A stretch of 64,000 bases of DNA from Rhodospirillaceae bacterium (GTDB lineage: Bacteria > Pseudomonadota > Alphaproteobacteria > Rhodospirillales > Rhodospirillaceae): positions 62,001 to 126,000 of the forward strand of contig JAPKDQ010000006.1 in the NCBI GenBank assembly GCA_028822445.1, in the 5' to 3' direction. Of the stretch, positions 2,206 through 55,937 are shown in pieces. The notes under the pieces were generated by a model that was not told the origin of the DNA, did not search any database, and saw only the letters and a list, made by a program, of their open reading frames with translations. How positions within the stretch are numbered: position 1 is the first letter of the stretch; every line of letters begins with the position of its first letter. The translations under genes were made by a program, and so were the position numbers.

Positions 2206-3252
2206 ATGGTACAGCCTTGGACAGCCACCTGCATGCAGGTTTACACACATACGGTTAACAGCGCAGTCACGCGGGAAGAAGCGATGGTGATCGTTAATTC
2301 TAGCCTAGATCGGTGGGTTACTTTAGCGAAGGGGACTGCGCGTGGGGCGGGGCCTTATGTACTTCTATTCCCAGAGTTTGCCTTGACCGGATTCCCGCTT
2401 CTTGAAACAGCGGACGAGTGGATAGAGAAAGCCTGTATTGAGATTCCGGGCCCAGAAACGAACAAACTTCAAGAAGCTGCTCAAGACTTAAAATGTTATA
2501 TCGGGGCAAACAGCTATGAGAAGGATCCTGAATGGCCAGGGCGTTATTTCAACTGTTCATATTTGATCGACCCGTCCGGCGATGTGATCCTTAAATACCG
2601 CCGAATTAACACCGTTCACACGGCATCTCCGCATGACTTCATGGACGCCTATCTCGATAGATACGGGTTGGAAGGGACTTTCCCTGTCGCGAAAACACCC
2701 CTTGGCAATATTGCAATGATGCCGTGCGGTGAGATCATGTATCCCGAAGCAGCTCGAATGTTCATGTTTCGCGGCGCTGAAGTTCTTCTGCATCCAACAT
2801 CCGACCACGGTGCTGCCGATAAGTGGGGCTGGGAGTCAGCAAAAAAAGTGCGTGCCTCTGAAAATATGATGTATCTGATTTCAACAAATGCGACCGGTCA
2901 GATAGGGACATTTATTCCTGAAGGACAAACGTTAGGGCATTCCAAGATTATTGATTTTCACGGCCGTATCTTGGCCGATGTCGGTGGTCCTGGGGAGAGT
3001 ACGGTCGCGTCGGCAACTATTGATGTAGAGGCCCTTAGAAGGGAGCGTCGTATACCAGGCGCGGGAAATAGGTTGCTACGGCAGCGTATAGAAATGTATC
3101 GGCCGCTCTACAACCAAAGTTCATTTTACCCACCGAATGCCTTCGCAGATTCGCCCATGGACTCAAAAACAAGGATTATGGAACTTCAAGAAGAAGCACT
3201 AGCCAAGATGACAGCATCCGGGGTTGTGACTTTACCGGATACGGGCGGCTAG
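2206..3252 (+). CDS. Nitrilase-superfamily carbon-nitrogen hydrolase, copy 2
   Basis: This 348-aa paralogue of the preceding gene is alignable end to end, with long shared blocks such as 'CYIGANSYE' and 'DPEWPGRYFNCSYLID'. It keeps Glu57 ('LFPEFALTGFP') and the nucleophile Cys ('MPCGEIMYPEAAR'), and again has Y-R-R where family members usually have Y-R-K. A clear AGGAG site precedes the ATG. The two copies differ most between about residues 205 and 260 and at the C-terminus, which suggests an old duplication with possible substrate divergence. It is cytoplasmic (no signal) and co-directional with copy 1. It ends 2 bp before the convergent DsbA-like gene. Confidence 0.9.
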   Translation: MVQPWTATCMQVYTHTVNSAVTREEAMVIVNSSLDRWVTLAKGTARGAGPYVLLFPEFALTGFPLLETADEWIEKACIEIPGPETNKLQEAAQDLKCYIGANSYEKDPEWPGRYFNCSYLIDPSGDVILKYRRINTVHTASPHDFMDAYLDRYGLEGTFPVAKTPLGNIAMMPCGEIMYPEAARMFMFRGAEVLLHPTSDHGAADKWGWESAKKVRASENMMYLISTNATGQIGTFIPEGQTLGHSKIIDFHGRILADVGGPGESTVASATIDVEALRRERRIPGAGNRLLRQRIEMYRPLYNQSSFYPPNAFADSPMDSKTRIMELQEEALAKMTASGVVTLPDTGG

Positions 3253-5616: not shown

Positions 5617-5976
5617 ATGGCTGATCGAAAATCCAATCGTCCGACCTATACGGCCGATTACATCAAAGGTGATTTCGAAAAGGCTGTCTATCTCGACAAC
5701 GCCCACACAGACAATCTTATGACAGCCTTTCTTGGACTTGGCGCCGAGCATTGGGCGTTGCGCCGTCGTGTCATGGTGCTCGAGAAATTTATGGCTGAGG
5801 GTAACGTCATCGACCCCGCCTTGGTAGAAGCTTACGAACCAACGCCAGAAGAAAAAGTCACTTGGGAAGCCGAGCGTGATGACTTTATTGAACGTACTTT
5901 TAGTGTTTTGACCAGGGCAACCAACACCGTTTCTGGTCCTGTACCAACCGGAAAGGTTCCCGCTCGCGAGCCTTAA
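5617..5976 (+). CDS. Small partner protein of the Tat-methyltransferase cassette, copy 1
   Basis: The 119-aa protein is a clear paralogue of the product of 39721-40149: shared features are 'YTADYIKGD', a 'LDN' followed by an 'MT' pair, 'LGAExWAxRRR' and 'ERDxFIxxTF'. It looks mostly helical, is rich in charged residues, and has no signal peptide. No Pfam family comes to mind. The frame is open further upstream, but the chosen ATG has AAAGGGG before it and aligns with the start of the other copy. Both copies lie immediately upstream of a Tat-signal methyltransferase gene (gap 36 bp here, 4-bp overlap in the second), so it is probably a subunit, chaperone or regulator of that enzyme. The function is unknown. 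Confidence 0.75.
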   Translation: MADRKSNRPTYTADYIKGDFEKAVYLDNAHTDNLMTAFLGLGAEHWALRRRVMVLEKFMAEGNVIDPALVEAYEPTPEEKVTWEAERDDFIERTFSVLTRATNTVSGPVPTGKVPAREP

Positions 5977-6012
5977 TCTCTGAAACTGAGACTCTAGTCA
6001 GGAGAGAACAGT

Positions 6013-7227
6013 ATGCTAAGCCGCCGCACTATTCTTGCTACCTCCGCCGCCGCCGCCGCCGCAGTAGTCACCGCGGCGGGTACATCCCAGGCAAGCACCC
6101 CCTCGCTCGACATCAAGATAGACCCCTATAACCAGACTGCTGAACAGAAAGCTTTACATACGGCGCGCTTTGAAAAGCTTGATCAGGAGAGCCTGATGAG
6201 TTTCGCCGAGGGCTTCAAAAGTTGGAATGGGAAAGACCTAGCCGGCCGTGGGCAACGACGCATAACAAACGCGTTTCTGCGTTCGAAGGGTCTAACCATT
6301 GGCCGGACAGAGATAGGGTATGAAGAGTGCTTCAACCTCATGCTCGATGAGCCCTCCTTTGCTGCGAAAATACGGTTTAACCGGAGCGCACAAGCTTTGA
6401 TGTGGGACCGCGCACTACGCGCTTTCCATGGCGAGCCTGATAGGTATCTCGCGCTTATGGAAGAAACGGATAATACTGGACCGGGTAGCTTAGAACTTAA
6501 CCCAGGCATGCATTTACCCGACTACACCGTCCATGAAATTCACGCCCAACCCGGTGGCTATGTTGGTGACCCTTTCGCCGGATGGATTTATCACTGGGCG
6601 CTCACCCAAGCCTTCTATCAAGCACGAAACCAATACGACGAAGTGTTTACTGCTATAGCGCAGGACTGCCCGAAGCCTGACGACGGCCAGGTACGCCGCA
6701 TTCTTGACTTAGGATGCGGATCAGGCTTATCGACCATGGCCTATAAAGAGCGTTTTCCTAACGCAGAGGTATGGGGGATCGATGCCGGCGGCCCAATGGT
6801 TCGCTACGGTCATTATGAAGCAGTGCAAAGAAACCTCGATGTTCACTTCGCCCAGCGTCTAGCGGAGGATACTAGGTTTCCAGACGGCTATTTCGACATC
6901 GTCTCCGACTATCTTCTGTTCCATGAAGTGACCGTCCCCGCAGCGCAGAAGATCATGCCGGAAATCCACCGCGTTCTGAGGCCGGGAGGCGTGTTCTATC
7001 ATGACGACAGCCCAACGATTGGTAACCCGAATGTTCCGATGTCGTTGACAGTTTACGCCAAGGCCAGGGCTTGGGAAGATCACCGTCATAACATTGAACC
7101 GTGGATCCTAGGGTACCGGCACGCGGACTTCCCGGCACTCATGAGAGGGTCTGGATTCGAAGTTGACCTAACTATTAGACAGAACGTTCATCGTAAGCGC
7201 GCTATTTTTGGAATAAAGCCCGCCTAA
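6013..7227 (+). CDS. Class I SAM-dependent methyltransferase with Tat signal, copy 1
   Basis: The 404-aa protein starts with a twin-arginine signal (SRRTILATS, then an Ala/Val-rich core and a likely cleavage site near residue 28). A family-specific N-terminal half follows, with the signature 'LNPGMHLPDY' and 'HAQPGGYVGDPFAG' at about 161-190. The Rossmann methyltransferase core comes next: motif I 'ILDLGCGSG' near 232, the acidic motif II 'VWGIDAGGPMVRYG', and 'VLRPGG' near 320. AGGAG precedes the ATG. It forms a pair with the small protein 36 bp upstream. Substrate unknown. Export of a SAM-dependent enzyme would be unusual, so either the signal acts as an anchor, the protein binds something other than SAM, or the motif is fortuitous. 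Confidence 0.85.
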   Translation: MLSRRTILATSAAAAAAVVTAAGTSQASTPSLDIKIDPYNQTAEQKALHTARFEKLDQESLMSFAEGFKSWNGKDLAGRGQRRITNAFLRSKGLTIGRTEIGYEECFNLMLDEPSFAAKIRFNRSAQALMWDRALRAFHGEPDRYLALMEETDNTGPGSLELNPGMHLPDYTVHEIHAQPGGYVGDPFAGWIYHWALTQAFYQARNQYDEVFTAIAQDCPKPDDGQVRRILDLGCGSGLSTMAYKERFPNAEVWGIDAGGPMVRYGHYEAVQRNLDVHFAQRLAEDTRFPDGYFDIVSDYLLFHEVTVPAAQKIMPEIHRVLRPGGVFYHDDSPTIGNPNVPMSLTVYAKARAWEDHRHNIEPWILGYRHADFPALMRGSGFEVDLTIRQNVHRKRAIFGIKPA

Positions 7228-7360: not shown

Positions 7361-9541
7361 ATGAGTAAGAGAACAATATACAGTTCAATTATAGAACATG
7401 CTTCGTTTGCTACTAAGTTACTTGCCTCCGCAGCGATTATTAATGCGATATCCGTATCGGTTGCCGGTAATTTAGCTCTCGCACAGAACTTGGCGCTCGA
7501 AGAGATCGTTGTTACGGCAGAACGCAGAGTTACTAATCTTCAGTCAACGCCAGTCGCGGTCTCAGCATTTACCGCAGATAAACTAGAGAATCTTCAGGTT
7601 GACGAAACACTGGACCTGGCTAACAACGTCCCGAATCTGGTCTTGTACACGGGTGTCGCTAATCCGGGCATGGTCAATCTCTATATGCGTGGTGCGGGCG
7701 AGCAGATCGGTGGTCTTGTAACTTCTGAGTCGGCCGTCGGCATGTATGTGGACAATGTTTACAATGCTCGACTTTCTGCTGCTAACTTTGACCTCGTAGA
7801 TATTGAACGGATCGAGGTTCTCCGCGGTCCCCAGGGCACTCTCTACGGCCGGAATTCAATGACTGGTGCGTTAAAGATTGTAACCCGTGAAGCAAATGGT
7901 GAAACCTGGGCAAAGGGCTCGGTGGGGTACGGCAGTTTTGACGAGATAACTGTATCGGCTGGTGGAGGCTTTGCCCTCGTTGAAGATGCTCTTGGTATGA
8001 CTGTCTCTGCACAATATCGTGACCAGAGCGATGGCTGGCTCGAGAACCGGGCTACAGGCGAAGACCGAGGGGTTCGAGAAGTCTTCTCATTGCGTGGAAA
8101 AATGTCCTATTTCGGTTCTGATACGTTTAAGGCAACACTGTCTGGCTACTACTCAGATGATGACAACGATGGCTTAACACCGGTTGCAGTCAATTCGGTG
8201 ACGTTGGCTAATCAGACTGGGGGTGTTCGTACCGTGCAATCTCCCAACCCATCAGATGGGTTCACCGAGCAATATGGTGGTTCCCTCGACATGGAATGGC
8301 AGATTGGTAATCTCTCACTACAGTCAGTCACGGCCTATATCGATGTAAAAGATGGGTTTCGATTTGACCTTTCCGGCGGTGTGGAGGTTGCACCGTCTAC
8401 ATTCCTCACTTTTATTGACCGGACCAGCGTCGCGTCTTCATCGCAATGGTCCCAAGAGCTACAATTGAGTGGCAAGTCTTTAGATGATCGCTTGGATTGG
8501 ATAGTTGGAGGTTTTTACTTCGATGAGCAGGCAGATCAGCAGATTGATGACGTCATTTTCTTTAACGCCTTGGTGCCGACGATCATCGACCAAGAATCTA
8601 AATCATATGCGCTCTTTTCTCAGGGAACCTATCAGCTCACGGATAGATTAAGTGGGACGGCGGGTGTACGTTGGACCAAGGATCAGAAAACATTAACTGG
8701 TCAAATCGATACATTCTTCGGTTCAGGTATTCCTTCGCTCGTTGATCGCGGAGATAGCTGGTCAGTTTTCACGCCACGTGTTGGACTTGATTATCAGGTT
8801 TCAGACGATGTCTTTGTTTATGGGTCTGTCTCTCGAGGGTACCGCGCTGGCGGGTACAATGGGCTAACTGTTGCAAATCCGACCTCTTTCAATACGCCAT
8901 TTGACCCCGAAACGGTCTGGGCGTTTGAACTAGGTAGCAAAGCAGATTTGTTAGAAAACCGTCTCCGTCTAAACACGGCAGTCTTTATGAATAAGTTTAA
9001 TGATATTCAACAGTCATCTACGTTGGGGGCTGGAGCTACAGCCATTCAAAACGTAGGTAAAGTTGACGTTTATGGCATCGAAACTGAAGTAACCGCTATC
9101 GTTACGGAAGCGTTGGAAATCTTTGCTCACTTGACTGTCCAAGATGATAGCTACAAGGAACTCGACCCTGGTTCTGTTGCCGCGACCCAGGGCTTGGGTC
9201 GATTGTCTCACCTATCTAAACTGCAATCGCAACTCGGGTTTACTTACCAACATGATATCAACGATTCTGGATCTATCGTGCTGGGAAGTGACTACAGCCA
9301 TCGCAGCAATTACTTTTCAGATGCGGCCAATCAACTAATTAATAGGTCTGGCACGATCGATTTGGTAAACGGATTTGTCTCGTACCGGGCGAATAGCGGA
9401 AAATGGAAGGCTACACTCTCCGGCAAGAACCTCACGGGCAATGACTATTCCAAAATCGGTTTGGTGCTAGCCGCACCTAATGGAATTCGATTTGTTAATG
9501 AGCCCACGACATGGAAGTTCCAGATCGACGTAAGTCTGTAA
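7361..9541 (+). CDS. TonB-dependent outer membrane receptor
   Basis: The 726-aa protein has a long N-terminal signal region ending 'LALAQ' near residue 42, then the TonB box 'EEIVVTAERR'. The plug follows, with 'IERIEVLRGPQGTLYGRN' near 145-165, and a 22-strand-type barrel ends in an aromatic-hydrophobic terminus. This is the sphingomonad/marine type of receptor that takes up diverse organic ligands rather than only siderophores. The ligand cannot be read from sequence, but the neighbours (PQQ dehydrogenase, cysteine hydrolase, methyltransferase cassette, nitrilases) suggest an organic substrate. The region before it is AT-rich and should hold its promoter. Confidence 0.93.
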   Translation: MSKRTIYSSIIEHASFATKLLASAAIINAISVSVAGNLALAQNLALEEIVVTAERRVTNLQSTPVAVSAFTADKLENLQVDETLDLANNVPNLVLYTGVANPGMVNLYMRGAGEQIGGLVTSESAVGMYVDNVYNARLSAANFDLVDIERIEVLRGPQGTLYGRNSMTGALKIVTREANGETWAKGSVGYGSFDEITVSAGGGFALVEDALGMTVSAQYRDQSDGWLENRATGEDRGVREVFSLRGKMSYFGSDTFKATLSGYYSDDDNDGLTPVAVNSVTLANQTGGVRTVQSPNPSDGFTEQYGGSLDMEWQIGNLSLQSVTAYIDVKDGFRFDLSGGVEVAPSTFLTFIDRTSVASSSQWSQELQLSGKSLDDRLDWIVGGFYFDEQADQQIDDVIFFNALVPTIIDQESKSYALFSQGTYQLTDRLSGTAGVRWTKDQKTLTGQIDTFFGSGIPSLVDRGDSWSVFTPRVGLDYQVSDDVFVYGSVSRGYRAGGYNGLTVANPTSFNTPFDPETVWAFELGSKADLLENRLRLNTAVFMNKFNDIQQSSTLGAGATAIQNVGKVDVYGIETEVTAIVTEALEIFAHLTVQDDSYKELDPGSVAATQGLGRLSHLSKLQSQLGFTYQHDINDSGSIVLGSDYSHRSNYFSDAANQLINRSGTIDLVNGFVSYRANSGKWKATLSGKNLTGNDYSKIGLVLAAPNGIRFVNEPTTWKFQIDVSL

Positions 9542-9641: not shown

Positions 9642-11591
9642 ATGGACATCAAAAACGTTAAATCACCTTTCATATCTGTTCTATTCTTGGTGGCCAGTTT
9701 CACGCCCTTGTACTCGGCTGATACACATACGTCACTAATCGAAAATACGTCTTGGCCCTCATTCGGCGGCGTACGGTCAGGTGGCCAGTACTCAGCGTTA
9801 AATCAAATCAATAAATCTAACGTTGCTGGGCTAGAGCGCGCCTGGACTATTCACACTGGCGACGTGGAGAAAGGGCCCGCCGCTAGCGGCGGATCATCAT
9901 TCCAGGCAACGCCCGTGTTATGGAATGACACCCTTTACGTCTGCACACCAAGTAACAGAGTGCTTGCGTTGAACCCGGAGAGTGGGGAAGAAGTTTGGAC
10001 CTTCAATGCATATTCTGTTCTGCCCGAAGGGACCCCCGTATTTTCTTCGACCTGCCGCGGCGTTGCGATTTGGGCTCAAGGCCGTGAAGCCCCAAAAACT
10101 GAAACGTGTGCAGCGCGCATCATTCACCCTGACGTTTTTGGTAACCTATATGCTTTGGACGCTAAGACGGGAGCACTATGTAATGATTTTGGAACGGAGG
10201 GCGTACTCAATCTGAATCAGTTTGACTACTTTGGTACCGGGGGCATCTTCTTAGCCTCTCCGCCCTCTATCATTGGGGATACAATCGTCGTTGGTGGTGG
10301 AGTTGCCGATAATATGTTTGCTGATTCAGCTGACGGAATTGTCCGTGGACTTAATGTTCGAACGGGTGAAGAGCTTTGGTCGTTTAACCCGATTCCAGAG
10401 GGGCTACGTGATAAGACCGGTGGAGCTAATGTTTGGTCTATCTCCGCCGTCGACGAAGACGCTGGGATCATATACTTGCCCACATCAAGCCCAAGTGTCG
10501 ACCCTTATGGTGGGGCTCGCCTAGCTGATATTCCATATGCAAATGCTCTGGTTGCTTTGGATGCAGCCACGGGTAGAGTTATTTGGCACCAACAGATTAT
10601 TCATCACGACGTATTCGACTATGACTTACCAGGCCAACCCATCCTTCTTGATTTAGACCGTGATGGGGAGCGTTATCCGGCCGTCGTGCAGATTACAAAG
10701 ATGGGTTTCATTTTTGTCTTTAATAGGGAAACTGGTGAACCGCTATTTGATATTGAAGAGTTTGCTGCGCCCGCCACTGATGTCCCTGGCGAACAAACAG
10801 CACCGACACAGCCACGACCAGTAAAACCAGCACCATTTGCACAGCAGGACGTATCTGCAGACGAGCTTTGGGGGTTAACTTTTTGGGACCGTGGCAAATG
10901 CCGTGATACATTTTCTGAATTGAGATATGATGGCCTATACACACCCCCAAGCCTGCAAGGATCATTGCAGCTCCCCTCGGCGCTTGGCGGGGGAAATTGG
11001 GGTGGAGCAGCGGTCGACCCGATCACCGGTGTTATAATCGTTAAAACTCAGAACCTTGCTACAATTATCAAGCTCGTAGCCGCGGATATTAATGAAGTGC
11101 GGCCTTTAGGGCCCCCTGTGGAATTTTTACAGAAGCCTCTCAATGGCACGCCGTATCGGTTAGATGGGGAATTCTTTCTATCGCCGTTTGGCATGCCATG
11201 TACGCCACCGCCATGGGGTGAGCTGGTAGCGATCGATCTCAACACGGGTAATCATCTCTGGCGTGAACCTCTAGGCCGCATTGAAATCGGACCGTTTAAG
11301 ACACCTAAGTCTTGGGGCTCGCCGAACGTAGGTGGACCTATAGTGACAGCCGGTGGCCTCATATTTGTTGGTGCCGGCATGGACTCTGCTTTTCATGCCT
11401 TAGACATCAGCACAGGTAAAAACCTTTGGACTGACAGCTCTATTCCTGCTCCCGCTATGGCGGTGCCAATGACCTATATGATTGATGGTGTGCAATATGT
11501 CGTTGTGGCCGCAGGTGGGAATGGAATGGCGGGCACTAAGCAGTCTGACGCCGTTATTGCCTACAAACTACCTCAGAATAGTTCTAAATAA
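9642..11591 (+). CDS. PQQ-dependent dehydrogenase, periplasmic
   Basis: The 649-aa protein begins with a signal peptide (about residues 1-26, ending PLYSA) and lacks the five N-terminal membrane helices of E. coli Gcd. It folds as an eight-bladed quinoprotein propeller: 'GEEVWTF', 'GANVWS', 'ATGRVIWHQQIIHHDVFDYD' near 307-325, 'NWGGAAVDP' near 451 (the expected catalytic Asp), and 'GKNLWTD' near the end. 'HHDxxDYDLPGQP' matches the membrane glucose/quinate dehydrogenase-like class, which passes electrons from sugars or alcohols through PQQ to quinone. AGGAGG precedes the ATG. No cytochrome domain or pqq biosynthesis gene is in the window. It probably works with the upstream receptor. Confidence 0.92.
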   Translation: MDIKNVKSPFISVLFLVASFTPLYSADTHTSLIENTSWPSFGGVRSGGQYSALNQINKSNVAGLERAWTIHTGDVEKGPAASGGSSFQATPVLWNDTLYVCTPSNRVLALNPESGEEVWTFNAYSVLPEGTPVFSSTCRGVAIWAQGREAPKTETCAARIIHPDVFGNLYALDAKTGALCNDFGTEGVLNLNQFDYFGTGGIFLASPPSIIGDTIVVGGGVADNMFADSADGIVRGLNVRTGEELWSFNPIPEGLRDKTGGANVWSISAVDEDAGIIYLPTSSPSVDPYGGARLADIPYANALVALDAATGRVIWHQQIIHHDVFDYDLPGQPILLDLDRDGERYPAVVQITKMGFIFVFNRETGEPLFDIEEFAAPATDVPGEQTAPTQPRPVKPAPFAQQDVSADELWGLTFWDRGKCRDTFSELRYDGLYTPPSLQGSLQLPSALGGGNWGGAAVDPITGVIIVKTQNLATIIKLVAADINEVRPLGPPVEFLQKPLNGTPYRLDGEFFLSPFGMPCTPPPWGELVAIDLNTGNHLWREPLGRIEIGPFKTPKSWGSPNVGGPIVTAGGLIFVGAGMDSAFHALDISTGKNLWTDSSIPAPAMAVPMTYMIDGVQYVVVAAGGNGMAGTKQSDAVIAYKLPQNSSK

Positions 11592-20591: not shown

Positions 20592-20828
20592 CCGCTTATG
20601 GCTAATAGCGGACCTCACTGCACACTCAGCTAGTCAGTAGGGATGGTCAACTGAATGGACCGTACCGCTTGAAGACCTACCCTGTGAGGCGTTCAGTCCG
20701 CTGCGGAGCGGTTCAATTTTATTCTTTTAACAGACCACAAAGCAAGATTATGAAGATGGGTCAAAAGATGGGTTTTCTGGTTATTAATTAACTAACCAAT
20801 TGTTTTTATTATTTAAATAGAATGTATT

Positions 20829-20919
20829 GGCGGATGGGGTGGGATTCGAACCCACGAGACGCTTTCACGCCTGCTGGTTTTCAAGACCAGTGCCTTCAAC
20901 CGCTCGGCCACCCATCCGC
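20829..20919 (-). tRNA. tRNA-Ser(UGA)
   Basis: On the minus strand the sequence folds as a long-variable-arm tRNA. The acceptor 5' GCGGATG pairs with 3' CATCCGC, the anticodon loop CTTGAAA gives anticodon UGA, and the T-loop region reads GGGTTCGAATCCC. CCA is not encoded. It lies between the accessory region and the mtn operon, a common kind of boundary. Confidence 0.95.
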
Positions 20920-34644: not shown

Positions 34645-35886
34645 ATGACTGTCCCTCTTCCTGCTGACTCCCGCTCGCTCTATCGGCACGGTATGACGCC
34701 CGATATCAATCATGATGAGTCTGCGCGGATCAATGTACTGGCATCACTTAATGCTGCTGTAGCGGCGACCCTCAGTAAGGGCGTGAAGCTCGCTTACGAG
34801 CACGAGGTTTTACCAAAGCTTACAGCCGAGGATCTCAATCTTTCTCACCCTAAAGCGCAGACCGGCGCGATGATCCGTGATGCCATTAGACCTAGTCCAG
34901 TCTACCAATCCTGGGCGAGTCTTCGCCGTATGATCCAGGAAATGAATCGACAGACCTCACGCCATATCGCGATCAGGCAAATGAGCGATTTACAGGAGCG
35001 TGCTATTGCCCTTACTGAGGATTCGAATGACTGTACTCTCGTCCTTAATCCATCTCTGAAAGTACCGCGCTATCTAGCAAATGCCGATAATCACCTTCAG
35101 CCCGGGGGATATCACACGGAGATCGAGCCTGGGGATATGACGGCCGCCGCAACCTATGATGTTGCGACCTTTGTTACGGCGATGGGCATGTTTGGCCCGA
35201 AGGGTGATTCAGCCGGACGGGGCATGGCGCAATGGTTGGCTGAGCACCACCCGAACTTCAAGCCTAAGCGCATTCTTGATATCGGTGCGGCCCATGGCAA
35301 CAATACCCTACCCCTTGCGGCTGCCTTCCCCGAAGCAGAAGTGGTCGCCCTAGATGCCGGTGCACCGATGCTACGCTATGGGCAAGCACGGGCGCTCTCT
35401 ATGGGGGTCTCGAATGTTCGTTTTGTCCATGGGGCTGCTGAAGAGATTGATAAGTCACTGGGTACGTTCGACTTAATCCAAAGCACTATGGTCTTCCATG
35501 AAACATCAGGAACAGCCCTGCCCCAGATCCTGAAACGAATATACGCTGCGCTTAATCCAGGCGGCCTGACCACTCATCTTGAACAGCCCAATTTTACCCC
35601 TGTTACCCCGGTGTTTGATCGTTTCCTGCGCAATTGGGATTCCTGGTACAACAACGAGCCATTTTGGGTTCAGCTGCACGGCATGGATTTTAAAACGGAG
35701 TTACACGCTGCGGGGTTCGACCCTGACAAATGTATTGAAAGTGGCGTGAACCCAAACCTGGAACCAGGCCAGTATCCGTCGTGGGCCGGTCGGATCAGCC
35801 GCCACGATCATGAGCATGCGAAACCCGAGGCCGTACAACAGGGCTACAACGGCGAGACTTGGTATCTGTTCGGTGCATGGAAATAG
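34645..35886 (+). CDS. Class I SAM-dependent methyltransferase, third family member, no signal peptide
   Basis: The 413-aa protein belongs with the two Tat-signal methyltransferases in this window: it shares 'LNPSLKVPRYL' followed by 'HLQPGGYHTE' (about 130-155), 'ILDIGAAHGNN' as motif I near 211, and 'VVALDAGAPMLRYGQARAL'. It differs in having a soluble N-terminus and no adjacent partner gene. By inference it acts in the cytoplasm on a related substrate. The ribosome site is weak, and the ~215 bp upstream is strongly AT-rich, marking the left edge of the second accessory block. The next gene is convergent, 15 bp away. Confidence 0.8.
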   Translation: MTVPLPADSRSLYRHGMTPDINHDESARINVLASLNAAVAATLSKGVKLAYEHEVLPKLTAEDLNLSHPKAQTGAMIRDAIRPSPVYQSWASLRRMIQEMNRQTSRHIAIRQMSDLQERAIALTEDSNDCTLVLNPSLKVPRYLANADNHLQPGGYHTEIEPGDMTAAATYDVATFVTAMGMFGPKGDSAGRGMAQWLAEHHPNFKPKRILDIGAAHGNNTLPLAAAFPEAEVVALDAGAPMLRYGQARALSMGVSNVRFVHGAAEEIDKSLGTFDLIQSTMVFHETSGTALPQILKRIYAALNPGGLTTHLEQPNFTPVTPVFDRFLRNWDSWYNNEPFWVQLHGMDFKTELHAAGFDPDKCIESGVNPNLEPGQYPSWAGRISRHDHEHAKPEAVQQGYNGETWYLFGAWK

Positions 35887-36777: not shown

Positions 36778-37917
36778 TTAACCAGCGTCCCCTTGTATAT
36801 TCAGCCAACGGCTTTTCTCGTCCATGAGCTTCTTCATGCCCTCACGGGACTGGGGAAGTTCTTCCAGAGGGACATCGAGGATATTCATGGGAACTTCCTG
36901 GACGAACTGATCGAAGACCGGCTTGACGACTTCCATTGGATAACGCGGAATACGACGGTCTTTTCTGAGCTCGGCGATGTTTAGTTCGGCCTCGACAATG
37001 GCTTCATCGCCAGATTTCTCTTGAGCCAAGATTTTTCCACCGGGCGCAACAATCAACGAGTTTCCACCAAACCCAGGAGGGAAGTTGGGGTTAGAGGGAA
37101 ATGTGATGTTCGACATGCCCGAATACACATTGTTGTAATAAGCAATGGCTTGAACATCGACTTCCGAGAATCCGGTTGCTGTACGGAGCATGATCTCTAC
37201 GCCACGCATAGCGAAAGCGGCAAACACGAACGGATCGATCTGCACTGTGCTAACGGCGATATTACCGAATTCGGTTTGCAGGATCGGGAACTCTTCTTCA
37301 ATGCCGTACTTCGCCCGAAATTTATCATGGACGTTTTCGATGGTAGTGGTTGGAATTTCGCCGCCATCGTCGGTGTAGCGCGAGGCGTTACGTGTTTTCC
37401 AATAGGTGTGTTTGATCTCGCCATCGCGCCCGATCACCGGGTTCAGGCTGAGAATATGTCCGGGCCAGTCTGGGTCGGTCGCATAGCTGCCAAAGATAAT
37501 GTAGGTATCGCAGGCTTTAGCGAATGCACCGATGGCTTTTGTTTCAGGCCCGGGAACTTGGATAGTGAATTTGAGTTTCTCTTCCCGGGTGCCGGAGGAA
37601 TAACCGGTCAGTGGAAATTCATTGAACAGAATGAAGTCTGGCTTTTTGCCTTCGGTGCAGGCTTTTTTGATCCAATAGCCCATGCGTTTCACGTTTTCTT
37701 TGAGGCCCGATTCAACGCTTTCGGCTTCTTGCAGAAGCATTGGTTCATTTTGGACGACCTTGAGGACAACAACGTCCTTCTCCAACGGGACTGTGGGATA
37801 GCTGCCATCTGGACGCACCAATTCTGGCACCGACTGCGATATCGCCTCCACACTCCAGACACTGGCAAGTAATCCTAGGCAGAGCCCTATGGATTTCAAC
37901 ATGGGTCGTTTTTCCAT
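36778..37917 (-). CDS. Exported nitrilase-fold protein lacking the catalytic cysteine
   Basis: The 379-aa protein has a signal peptide (about 1-27, ending VEAISQ) and a nitrilase-superfamily fold. Glu100 in 'ILFNEFPLTGYS' and Lys174 in 'HTYWKTRN' fit two catalytic positions. Where the nucleophile Cys should be, it reads 'GNIAVSTVQIDPFVFAAFAM': the conserved Pro aligns with that of the two cytoplasmic copies, and the Cys position becomes Ser223, with a 2-residue gap before it. No other Cys is near. It may be a non-hydrolytic binding protein, a Ser-dependent variant, or inactive. GGAG precedes the ATG. It neighbours the second methyltransferase cassette. Confidence 0.82.
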   Translation of the reverse strand: MEKRPMLKSIGLCLGLLASVWSVEAISQSVPELVRPDGSYPTVPLEKDVVVLKVVQNEPMLLQEAESVESGLKENVKRMGYWIKKACTEGKKPDFILFNEFPLTGYSSGTREEKLKFTIQVPGPETKAIGAFAKACDTYIIFGSYATDPDWPGHILSLNPVIGRDGEIKHTYWKTRNASRYTDDGGEIPTTTIENVHDKFRAKYGIEEEFPILQTEFGNIAVSTVQIDPFVFAAFAMRGVEIMLRTATGFSEVDVQAIAYYNNVYSGMSNITFPSNPNFPPGFGGNSLIVAPGGKILAQEKSGDEAIVEAELNIAELRKDRRIPRYPMEVVKPVFDQFVQEVPMNILDVPLEELPQSREGMKKLMDEKSRWLNIQGDAG

Positions 37918-37992: not shown

Positions 37993-38520
37993 TTACTTAC
38001 TCCTCAGCGAAACGATTGGGCCCAGACGCGCTGGAAAGGCCCCGAAAACTATCGAAATACAAAGGGATATCAAGAACGGATAGGTAGCCGCCTCCCAGGT
38101 TAGAGCCATATCCCATCCGGTGATTTTGCTGCCAATGAGGATACACCCACCTCCAATAACAACGCCGATAATGCCACCAAGCAGCGCAAGTAAGACAGAC
38201 TCTGCAAGGAATTGGCAGGATATCCCGTGGCTGTGCACCGACGGCCATACGCAACCCTATCTCTCCATAGCGCTCTCTAACTGAAAGGAGCGATACCGCT
38301 AGCAAGCCAACGCCCCAAAGACTAAGCGCCAGTCCGGCAAGTCCAAAAGTTAACTCTCCGAAGGACCCTTTCATCTGTTCTTGTGTAGCGAGTAAGGAAT
38401 CCTGATCTTGTATCTCAAAGTCATCAGTGAAGTTGGGACGGTCATAGCCATGCTCATCGCGTAAGAGAGCGGTGATATCCGCATTGGCGACCTCGATCGC
38501 CGGTTGGGACAGGGATGACG
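37993..38520 (-). pseudogene. Remnant of a MacB/FtsX-type ABC permease gene
   Basis: Two overlapping frames together read as the C-terminal part of a MacB-like permease. The first gives 'ITALLRDEHGYDRPNFTDDF', then a helix, then 'VRERYGEIGLRMAVGAQ' followed by 'PRDIL'; after a frameshift near 38220 the second gives 'CQFLAESVLLALLGGIIGVV' and two more helices. The upstream part has no start codon and begins directly after the stop of the methyltransferase gene. It is therefore truncated at its 5' end and frameshifted: a dead gene, probably left by the insertion that placed the methyltransferase cassette here. Confidence 0.85.
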
Positions 38521-38527
38521 TTAGCGA

Positions 38528-39724
38528 CTACGCTGGTTTAACACCCATGATGTTGCGCCTAGAGCCACGACGGCTCGGCGGACCATCTTCGTTGACAATG
38601 AATCCGGCCTTACGCATGGCCGATGCCATATCGAACTTGGCATACCCTAAACGCCAGGGTTCACCGTTCCACCGGCTATCCCACCATTGGCGGAAAGTGC
38701 TATAAACACCCTTCGGAACCGGGTTCCCAGTGTAGAAGTCGATTGGATAATACACTCCACCTGGCCGCAATACACGATAGGATTCCGCCAGAATTTGATG
38801 CGCCGCTTCTGTCGTCACTTCATGAAACATGATGTTGTTAGTGGCTAGATCGAAGTGATTATCAGGAAACTGTGAATCCTCAGCCAACCGTTGCGCAAAA
38901 TTGACATCAACACCAATATCCACGGCACGCATATGAGCGTAACGCACCATCGGTCCGCCAACATCAATGCCCCACACCTCCGCATCGGAGAATCTCTGTT
39001 TCAAAGCAACACTCAACTGACCACAGCTACATCCTTGATCGAGTACCCGCATCACCTGGCCATCTTCCGGTTCGGGCATGGCGTTGGCTAAAGCAATGTG
39101 CAGTTCATCCTGGTCGTTGCGACCTTCGAAGAAGTTGTTGGTGCCGTAATGATAGATGTGCCCGGCGAACGGATCACCCACATAGCCACCCGGCTGGATA
39201 TGTATCTCATGGGTCACGTAGTCAGGCATCGCCATATCCGGGTTCAACTCTAATGTACCCGGTCCAACGTTATCTGCCGCTTCCATTTCCGCGAGATATG
39301 CATCCGCGTTGCCATGAAATTCGTCATGCAACGTTTTCCAGTTGATTTGCTGTGCACTGAGCCACATTCGCGCACTAGCGGCAACGAGAGGGTCATTACC
39401 CACGTGTTTCAGAACGTCTGCTGTCGGAAGTTTCTTGGTAGGGTCTATACCCTTAGCCCGCATGATATTTGCAATACGACGGCGCGCGGCGCTGTTCATA
39501 TCCCGGTTGGCGAACACGCGAAAGCCAGTGATAAAATCGTGTTGCGCTTCTAAATGCTGGCGGGGAAGACGCTCCAATCGACCATTCGAGCCACGAGGTT
39601 CAACATCGGCCGCATTGAACTTAGAAGACGATATCGCGGCTGATGCTTTCTTGCTGCCAAACAAAGCACCAACGAAAGAGGCGGTTGCCGCTGAAGCGCC
39701 AAAGAGATTCCGTCTGTTAATCAT
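38528..39724 (-). CDS. Class I SAM-dependent methyltransferase with Tat signal, copy 2
   Basis: The 398-aa protein is an end-to-end paralogue of the one at 6013: twin-arginine signal ('NRRNLFGASAATASF', cleavage near residue 28), the family block 'LNPDMAMPDYVTHEIHIQPG' then 'GYVGDPFAGHIYHY', motif I 'VLDQGCSCGQLS' near 229, 'VWGIDVGGPMVRYAH', 'FAQRLAED' and 'VLRPGGVYY'. In motif I the usual GxGxG becomes GCSCG, which still may bind SAM. Its ATG overlaps the partner gene's stop by 4 bp, so translation is coupled. The substrate and compartment are unknown. Confidence 0.85.
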   Translation of the reverse strand: MINRRNLFGASAATASFVGALFGSKKASAAISSSKFNAADVEPRGSNGRLERLPRQHLEAQHDFITGFRVFANRDMNSAARRRIANIMRAKGIDPTKKLPTADVLKHVGNDPLVAASARMWLSAQQINWKTLHDEFHGNADAYLAEMEAADNVGPGTLELNPDMAMPDYVTHEIHIQPGGYVGDPFAGHIYHYGTNNFFEGRNDQDELHIALANAMPEPEDGQVMRVLDQGCSCGQLSVALKQRFSDAEVWGIDVGGPMVRYAHMRAVDIGVDVNFAQRLAEDSQFPDNHFDLATNNIMFHEVTTEAAHQILAESYRVLRPGGVYYPIDFYTGNPVPKGVYSTFRQWWDSRWNGEPWRLGYAKFDMASAMRKAGFIVNEDGPPSRRGSRRNIMGVKPA

Positions 39725-40149
39725 GATCCGCCCCCCATTCTCATACCCGCGTCTCCGGAGCGCGTCGTCTCATCCTCTGGGTCCACCCCCGAAGATTTAC
39801 CAGGATTATCCTTGGCACTGATATCTAATGCGGTTTGGTCTTCACCTGTGCGGGCAATATGGCCGTAGGTCAGTTGAATGAAGGCGTCGCGTTCCTTGCG
39901 TAGTTCCGCCTCTTCTTCCTCCGTCAGCACATAACCTTCGATCATATTGCGGGTGATCGTGCCCTCTTTCTCGAACAACAGTTCTATCGTCCGCGTGCGC
40001 CGCCTGTTGGCCCATACTTCAGCCCCAAGGGCGATGATCGATGTCATCATATCGTCCATCAACGGATTATCGAGAAACACGGCTTGTTCGGTATCGGATT
40101 TTATAAAGTCCGCCGTATACATCTTACGACTAGATTTTGAGCCAGCCAT
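39721..40149 (-). CDS. Small partner protein of the Tat-methyltransferase cassette, copy 2
   Basis: The 142-aa protein is a paralogue of the one at 5617, sharing 'YTADFIKSD', 'AVFLDN', 'LGAEVWANRRR', 'LTEEEE' and 'ERDAFIQLTYG'. It adds a Gly/Ser/Asp-rich tail of about 40 residues. There is no signal peptide or membrane segment. It has a good GGGAGG site before its ATG and overlaps the methyltransferase gene by 4 bp. Recurrence of this pair in two places is the main evidence that the two proteins work together, for instance as chaperone and Tat substrate or as two subunits. Confidence 0.78.
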   Translation of the reverse strand: MAGSKSSRKMYTADFIKSDTEQAVFLDNPLMDDMMTSIIALGAEVWANRRRTRTIELLFEKEGTITRNMIEGYVLTEEEEAELRKERDAFIQLTYGHIARTGEDQTALDISAKDNPGKSSGVDPEDETTRSGDAGMRMGGGS

Positions 40150-55860: not shown

Positions 55861-55937
55861 TGGTCGGAGCGGCGGGATTCGAACCCACGACCCCCACACC
55901 CCCAGTATGGTGCGCTACCTGACTGCGCTACGCTCCG
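55861..55937 (-). tRNA. tRNA-Pro(GGG)
   Basis: On the minus strand the cloverleaf is clear: acceptor CGGAGCG pairs with CGCTCCG, the anticodon stem CCATA/TGTGG encloses the loop CTGGGGG with anticodon GGG, the T arm is GTGGGTTCGAATCCCGC, and the discriminator A with CCA is encoded (ACCA at the end). The 77-nt length includes CCA. Confidence 0.96.

Follow-up and report, generated by a model that had tools for sequence, protein, structure and literature searches.

The window, a stretch of DNA of 64 kb, harbors two gene pairs, each encoding a small helical protein and a class I methyltransferase (MTase) with a predicted twin-arginine (Tat) signal. Both pairs belong to an MTase family that is multiplied in this lineage, most of its predicted members being devoid of a signal. 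One branch of the family carries the signal as a conserved feature, and the MTases of this branch are probably exported. An evenly balanced proposal is that the MTase and the small protein form a two-subunit enzyme with a SAM pocket, and that the Tat branch of this enzyme is loaded with its cofactor in the cytoplasm, exported in the folded state together with the small subunit and active in the periplasm.

The first pair consists of a small gene at 5617..5976 on the plus strand (119 aa, no apparent signal peptide in the product) and, separated by 36 bp, a downstream MTase gene at 6013..7227 on the same strand (404 aa). The layout of this MTase comprises a predicted signal at residues ~1-28 (MLSRRTIL...), a helical N-terminal part at ~40-220 and a putative SAM-binding core at ~225-345. 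The second pair is located on the minus strand, with the small gene at 39721..40149 (142 aa) and the MTase gene at 38528..39724 (398 aa) sharing 4 bp. The open reading frames and their translations thus bear out the two pairs at 5617-7227 and 38528-40149, and the 4-bp overlap in the second, that had been described in an earlier note on this DNA. The two small proteins are 44% identical over 100 aa (E 2e-26) and the two paired MTases 45% identical over 408 columns (E 9e-115). In both paired MTases the core matches the Pfam families Methyltransf_25 and Methyltransf_11, and the N-terminal half has no Pfam domain aside from a weak Tat-signal match in the first MTase. NCBIfam equivalog matches of the MTase are all far below cut-off among the matches listed. 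The small proteins had been regarded as members of an unrecognized family, in agreement with Pfam and NCBIfam profile searches, in which neither of them gave a match at E≤1.

A third MTase paralogue on the plus strand (34645..35886) has neither a Tat signal nor an adjoining small gene. It is located close to a CN_hydrolase gene (36778-37917) for a carbon-nitrogen hydrolase with a signal-like start, and further CN_hydrolase genes occur at 1123-2175 and 2206-3252. The window also encodes a DUF1838 protein with a twin-arginine-type start (72-929); a Tat-type DUF1838 gene adjoins a small-gene/MTase pair at locus L154, which belongs to another family of the phylum. At 37993-38374 two overlapping frames look, by eye, like fragments of a disrupted gene for an ABC-type permease. 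The only Rfam matches at gathering score are a tRNA-Ser(TGA) at 20828-20917 and a tRNA-Pro(GGG) at 55861-55937.

The genome from which the window derives (2.85 Mb, 41 contigs, 98.9% complete) yielded 47 MTase matches in a single-query search, two of which are fragments at contig ends. Its small genes numbered 18 with a single query, 24 with a profile in the fetched stretches and 25 in a later whole-genome profile search. Five relatives contain 44, 54, 44, 71 and 63 MTase matches, so that the six genomes, all of one family, harbor 44 to 71 each, along with 24 to 38 small genes. A survey of other genomes for co-occurrence had been proposed: among 61 genomes (the window's own and 60 relatives) the small family is present in 14, and the same 14 contain the MTase. 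In one extra genome the MTase search gave just one match, a weak one (E 7e-9). Small genes are present in 19 of 73 genomes of the family. In a phylum sample of 398 genomes, three besides the window's own were found to carry one small gene each, in every case adjoining an MTase without a Tat signal. The expansion of MTase and small partner is large and apparently undescribed.

Pairing of the two genes is commoner than chance. In the window's genome 21 of 24 small genes are located ≤200 bp from an MTase; of the remaining three, one stands in tandem after a small gene that is itself paired, and the other two lack an MTase within the 12-13 kb surrounding them. Genome contigs were also scanned for related loci, and the best 80 of 284 relatives were studied. 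In these, all small genes (60/60) lie ≤200 bp from an MTase. Lack of conserved adjacency elsewhere, which the earlier note had named as a finding that would speak against the pair, was thus not observed. The reverse pairing is weaker: a small gene stands beside 21 of 47 MTases in the window's genome and, among the clade MTases of the best 80 of 284 relatives, beside 59 of 118. Several MTases form tandem rows sharing one small gene. One tandem row (L039:9439-13021) is made up of three MTases: a Tat copy, a second member of its clade that lacks the signal and is poor in cysteine, and a member of the cytoplasmic clade that has six cysteines. The distance matrices of the two partners are correlated (r 0.70 for 21 pairs of the window's genome, r 0.85 for 80 pairs), a value reached in 0 of 2000 shuffles; such a correlation would also be expected from the shared ancestry of duplicated cassettes.

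The partnership postulated in the earlier note therefore stands as far as recurrent pairing is concerned (21/24 and 60/60, the latter in the best 80 of 284 loci), but the small protein accompanies MTases with and without the signal: in the window's genome a small gene adjoins 5 of 12 Tat MTases and 16 of 35 others. The pair is also part of a much larger set of paralogues. The absence of an adjoining small gene from 7 of the 12 Tat MTases was counted against the proposal of two-subunit export.

These counts also bear on the role of the small protein, which might be a dedicated Tat chaperone of the TorD/DmsD type for the MTase. It is helical, lacks a signal peptide and is encoded upstream of a Tat MTase, and at locus L084 its gene follows a DmsC-type gene. 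Chaperones of this type serve signal-bearing clients, but Tat-less MTases are the neighbours of 16 among the 21 paired small genes of the window's genome and of the three small genes of distant genomes, and no family match (Pfam, NCBIfam) and no PDB match below E 0.5 was obtained. We give this explanation a very small probability. Since its partners include Tat-less MTases, the small protein is rather considered a candidate subunit or activator of the enzyme.

Structures were predicted for both proteins, as the earlier note had suggested. The MTase model has a mean pLDDT of 90.6, which is low in the signal region, and combines a helical part at residues ~40-220 with a class I MTase core. The model of the small protein is helical and of moderate confidence (pLDDT 74.9), with two main helices at 29-60 and 77-99. 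The small protein gave no match below E 0.5 in a PDB profile search and none below E 4 with Foldseek. A remote nitrile-hydratase-like or chaperone fold was considered for it and rejected, as no Pfam match and no PDB or Foldseek match below these E values was found. For the N-terminal part of the MTase, the sole marginal match among PDB sequences (6nsi, E 0.0036, 51 positions) was judged to be due to chance.

The twin-arginine signal was analyzed in 170 aligned homologues, with the related loci again being the best 80 of 284 relatives. Own MTase fragments <300 aa (2/47) and related frames cut by a locus end (7/132) were dropped before residues, signals and cysteines were counted. Clade membership was set by five core residues and ignored the N-terminus; a signal was called, by our own rules, where 11 or more uncharged residues come after R-R. 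It was found in 116 of 131 clade members and in 1 of 39 sequences outside the clade. Inspection by eye showed that 1 of the 116 is false (L111, minus strand) and that 1 of the 15 misses is real (L144). The consensus is M-[LI]-[DN]-R-R-[TS]-L-F-[GA]-A..., with A-x-A ~25 residues further on, so that the sequences show, by the same rules, the twin arginine, the uncharged h-region and the A-x-A near the cut of Tat substrates. In the window's genome 12 of 47 MTases carry the signal according to a regular expression; the count by core markers was used because this expression misses signals in long open frames. The claim that an MTase with SAM motifs bears a Tat signal is thus upheld by conservation within the clade, and homologues devoid of the signal, which the earlier note had regarded as fatal to its reading if found in close relatives, are the minority within the clade. 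The window's genome also encodes TatC (E 2e-70).

Clade members without a detected signal include Gammaproteobacteria paralogues beside a Tat copy (several of these records presumably being from sponge symbionts), two L076 copies and the L043 copy of the window's genome. Further misses form a group of tandem copies at L039 (window's genome), L121, L139, L145 and L126. The tandem copy at L109 has a signal and is 74-75% identical to its Tat-less counterparts, and the Tat-less copies at L121, L139 and L145 begin approximately at the predicted cut of the L109 Tat copy. This comparison suggests that the signal may behave as a removable module. In a tree of 71 rows, the Tat rows group within a single clade of 31 that has full support. 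The Tat labels require six changes, at least five of them on starred branches, a count that is too high because L080, L122 and L138 were labelled Tat-less yet carry the motif.

Low cysteine content is generally a trait of periplasmic proteins. Cysteine makes up 0.53% of 13 clade members of the window's genome compared with 1.10% of its 32 other paralogues (p 0.0026), and the number of cysteines beyond motif I is 0.92 per protein in the former versus 3.34 in the latter (p 3e-5). As a yardstick, other genes of the fetched stretches contain 0.56% cysteine if predicted to be exported (64 genes) and 1.18% if predicted to be cytosolic (186 genes; p 1.5e-9). The Tat-less Gammaproteobacteria paralogues have three to five cysteines besides that of motif I. 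Two observations were counted against the proposal: the contrast comes mostly from a single clade, and cysteines are scarce in the nested Tat-less copies at L039, L121, L139 and L145 as well. The latter fits either a recent loss of the signal or co-export with the adjoining Tat copy.

Alternatively, the signal might be present without export, the enzyme staying cytoplasmic or being merely held at the membrane. Signal peptides are not enriched among operon neighbours (10/34 for Tat MTases, 15/49 for other MTases), the Pfam TAT_signal profile scored 17.3 bits against the first window MTase, below its cut-off of 22.7, and Tat-less copies occur inside the clade. Nevertheless, the strict R-R pair is retained within a variable stretch in 116 sequences and the cysteine content is at the level of exported proteins, which makes a signal without export quite improbable. 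Export remains the strongly favoured reading for the Tat branch.

The Tat branch appears to retain the cofactor pocket. In 107 signal-bearing sequences, the SAM positions are occupied by G234 (105), G238 (104), D/E at 257 (107) and D/E at 232 (99). The acidic residue at 257, at the end of strand 2, is found in all 107 Tat sequences and in all 34 non-Tat sequences of the window's genome. P169, H177, H304, E305 and G381 are invariant in the same 107 and 34 sequences, and N360 and E362 nearly so. The family accordingly shows the Rossmann-type core, the glycine-rich motif I and the acidic residue at the end of strand 2 of class I SAM-dependent MTases, motifs from which SAM binding is predicted. 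H177, H304 and E305 are likely active-site residues, and H304-E305 aligns where CysG (9fcs) has a histidine. As the SAM motifs and these three residues are identical in each branch, cofactor and chemistry are probably common to the Tat and the cytoplasmic branch.

At position 236 motif I varies (G 50, S 35, A 14 and T 8 of 107), as might be expected of a pseudo-enzyme whose fold binds another ligand, the Tat form then serving the periplasm as a binding or structural protein. The remaining SAM positions and the putative catalytic H304-E305 show little or no variation, however, and a pseudo-enzyme seems very unlikely. The identity of the SAM motifs and of H177, H304 and E305 between Tat and non-Tat members is also consistent with an ordinary periplasmic MTase that would consume SAM, supplied there by some route, and methylate imported or envelope molecules; a gene for a TonB-dependent receptor (7361..9541, plus strand) is located downstream of the first window pair with a gap of 133 bp. 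To our knowledge, however, free SAM is not expected in the periplasm, and we regard a SAM-consuming enzyme as unlikely. For the same reason, a tightly held cofactor loaded before export is favoured.

The closest known relatives differ from the window family in architecture. The best Foldseek matches to the MTase model are Coq5, DsyB, Rv2258c, SgvM and CysG. MTases of the UbiE/Coq5 and Methyltransf_11/25 type have the core fold and motifs in common with it, yeast Coq5 (4obw) being the top Foldseek match (E 1e-9), and residues ~215-350 match many solved MTases by sequence, the best being LahSB (6uak, 2e-17). Unlike UbiE/Coq5-type MTases, the window family has a helical N-terminal part that matches no Pfam domain, a Tat branch and a small partner. 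The two-domain dimeric MTases DsyB, Rv2258c and SgvM/MppJ likewise combine a helical N-terminal domain with an MTase core, but we know of no partner protein or signal in these. Their TM scores by query length are 0.44 (7wdq), 0.42 (5f8e) and 0.39-0.40 (SgvM). The N-terminal domains superpose poorly, with an rmsd of ~15-17 in long alignments. In SgvM, H244 and H296 are the ligands of a zinc ion (PMC10502145). Metal-dependent C-methyltransferases of the SgvM/MppJ type have two histidine ligands in the C-terminal domain; in the window family the invariant H304 may be a candidate for one such ligand.

In the favoured mechanism, the catalytic subunit would join the class I MTase fold to a helical N-terminal part of a new kind, and the small helical-hairpin subunit would stabilize or activate it. 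Most family members would act in the cytoplasm, one branch having acquired a Tat signal. An enzyme of this branch would fold in the cytoplasm, take up SAM (alternatively SAH or a close analogue) and be joined there by the small subunit where this is encoded alongside. The folded, cofactor-loaded complex would cross via Tat, the signal-less small subunit hitchhiking, and once in the periplasm would act on a small-molecule substrate; the cofactor would be tightly held and used slowly or not consumed. The family, the pairing, the conserved signal, the SAM motifs and the cysteine pattern are read from the sequences; export, the loaded cofactor, the complex, hitchhiking and the periplasmic small-molecule chemistry are what we infer from them. 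Loading before export is a weaker step than export, with at best an even chance and perhaps somewhat less. That the Tat branch is exported with bound SAM and its helical partner, and that SAM serves it in the periplasm as a cofactor which is retained and perhaps not consumed, is put forward tentatively.

Precedents exist for parts of this mechanism. Hitchhiker export is described for PaoB and PaoC, which leave with a signal-bearing partner (PMC4273604), and the Tat pathway transports folded, cofactor-containing proteins (PMC6708511), NADP-loaded glucose-fructose oxidoreductase being named among the references of the latter. In PaoABC, HybOC and glucose-fructose oxidoreductase, as in the window pair, the Tat signal is on one subunit and the partner is signal-less. 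By analogy with these enzymes, a nucleotide-type cofactor may be required before export in the window family. PaoABC, HybOC and glucose-fructose oxidoreductase are oxidoreductases, whereas the window family is methyltransferase-like. Judged from listings, neither Tat export of a SAM methyltransferase nor this MTase expansion was the subject of any paper in a literature search.

Genes with similar properties occur next to members of the family; these cases are examples without a statistic, the sole neighbour statistic being the negative one on signal peptides. Within the window, the first pair and the TonB receptor gene are followed by a gene for a PQQ-type dehydrogenase (9642..11591, plus strand) with a signal peptide by rule. 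At L084 the order is a molybdopterin enzyme (cut by the locus end), a 4Fe-4S protein, a DmsC-type anchor, the small gene and the Tat MTase, the molybdopterin oxidoreductase, 4Fe-4S and anchor genes immediately preceding the pair (L084:29-3438). Anchor genes similar to the DmsC-type gene of L084 are present at L081, L089 and L143. At L101, L103, L112 and L124 the MTase stands opposite a gene for a molybdenum hydroxylase whose start is Tat-like (identified by Pfam in L112 and by likeness in the others). Directly after the Tat MTase, L112:5171-5968 and L124:5180-5959 encode NAD(P)-binding proteins (NAD_binding_10) with a Tat-like start, which seem to represent a second exported enzyme with a nucleotide cofactor.

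The expansion is notable by itself, with 44 to 71 MTase matches and 24 to 38 small genes in six genomes. If export with a bound cofactor is true, SAM-dependent chemistry would be placed in an unexpected compartment, and the family would offer a simple genetic system for that question, with one signal peptide and one partner.
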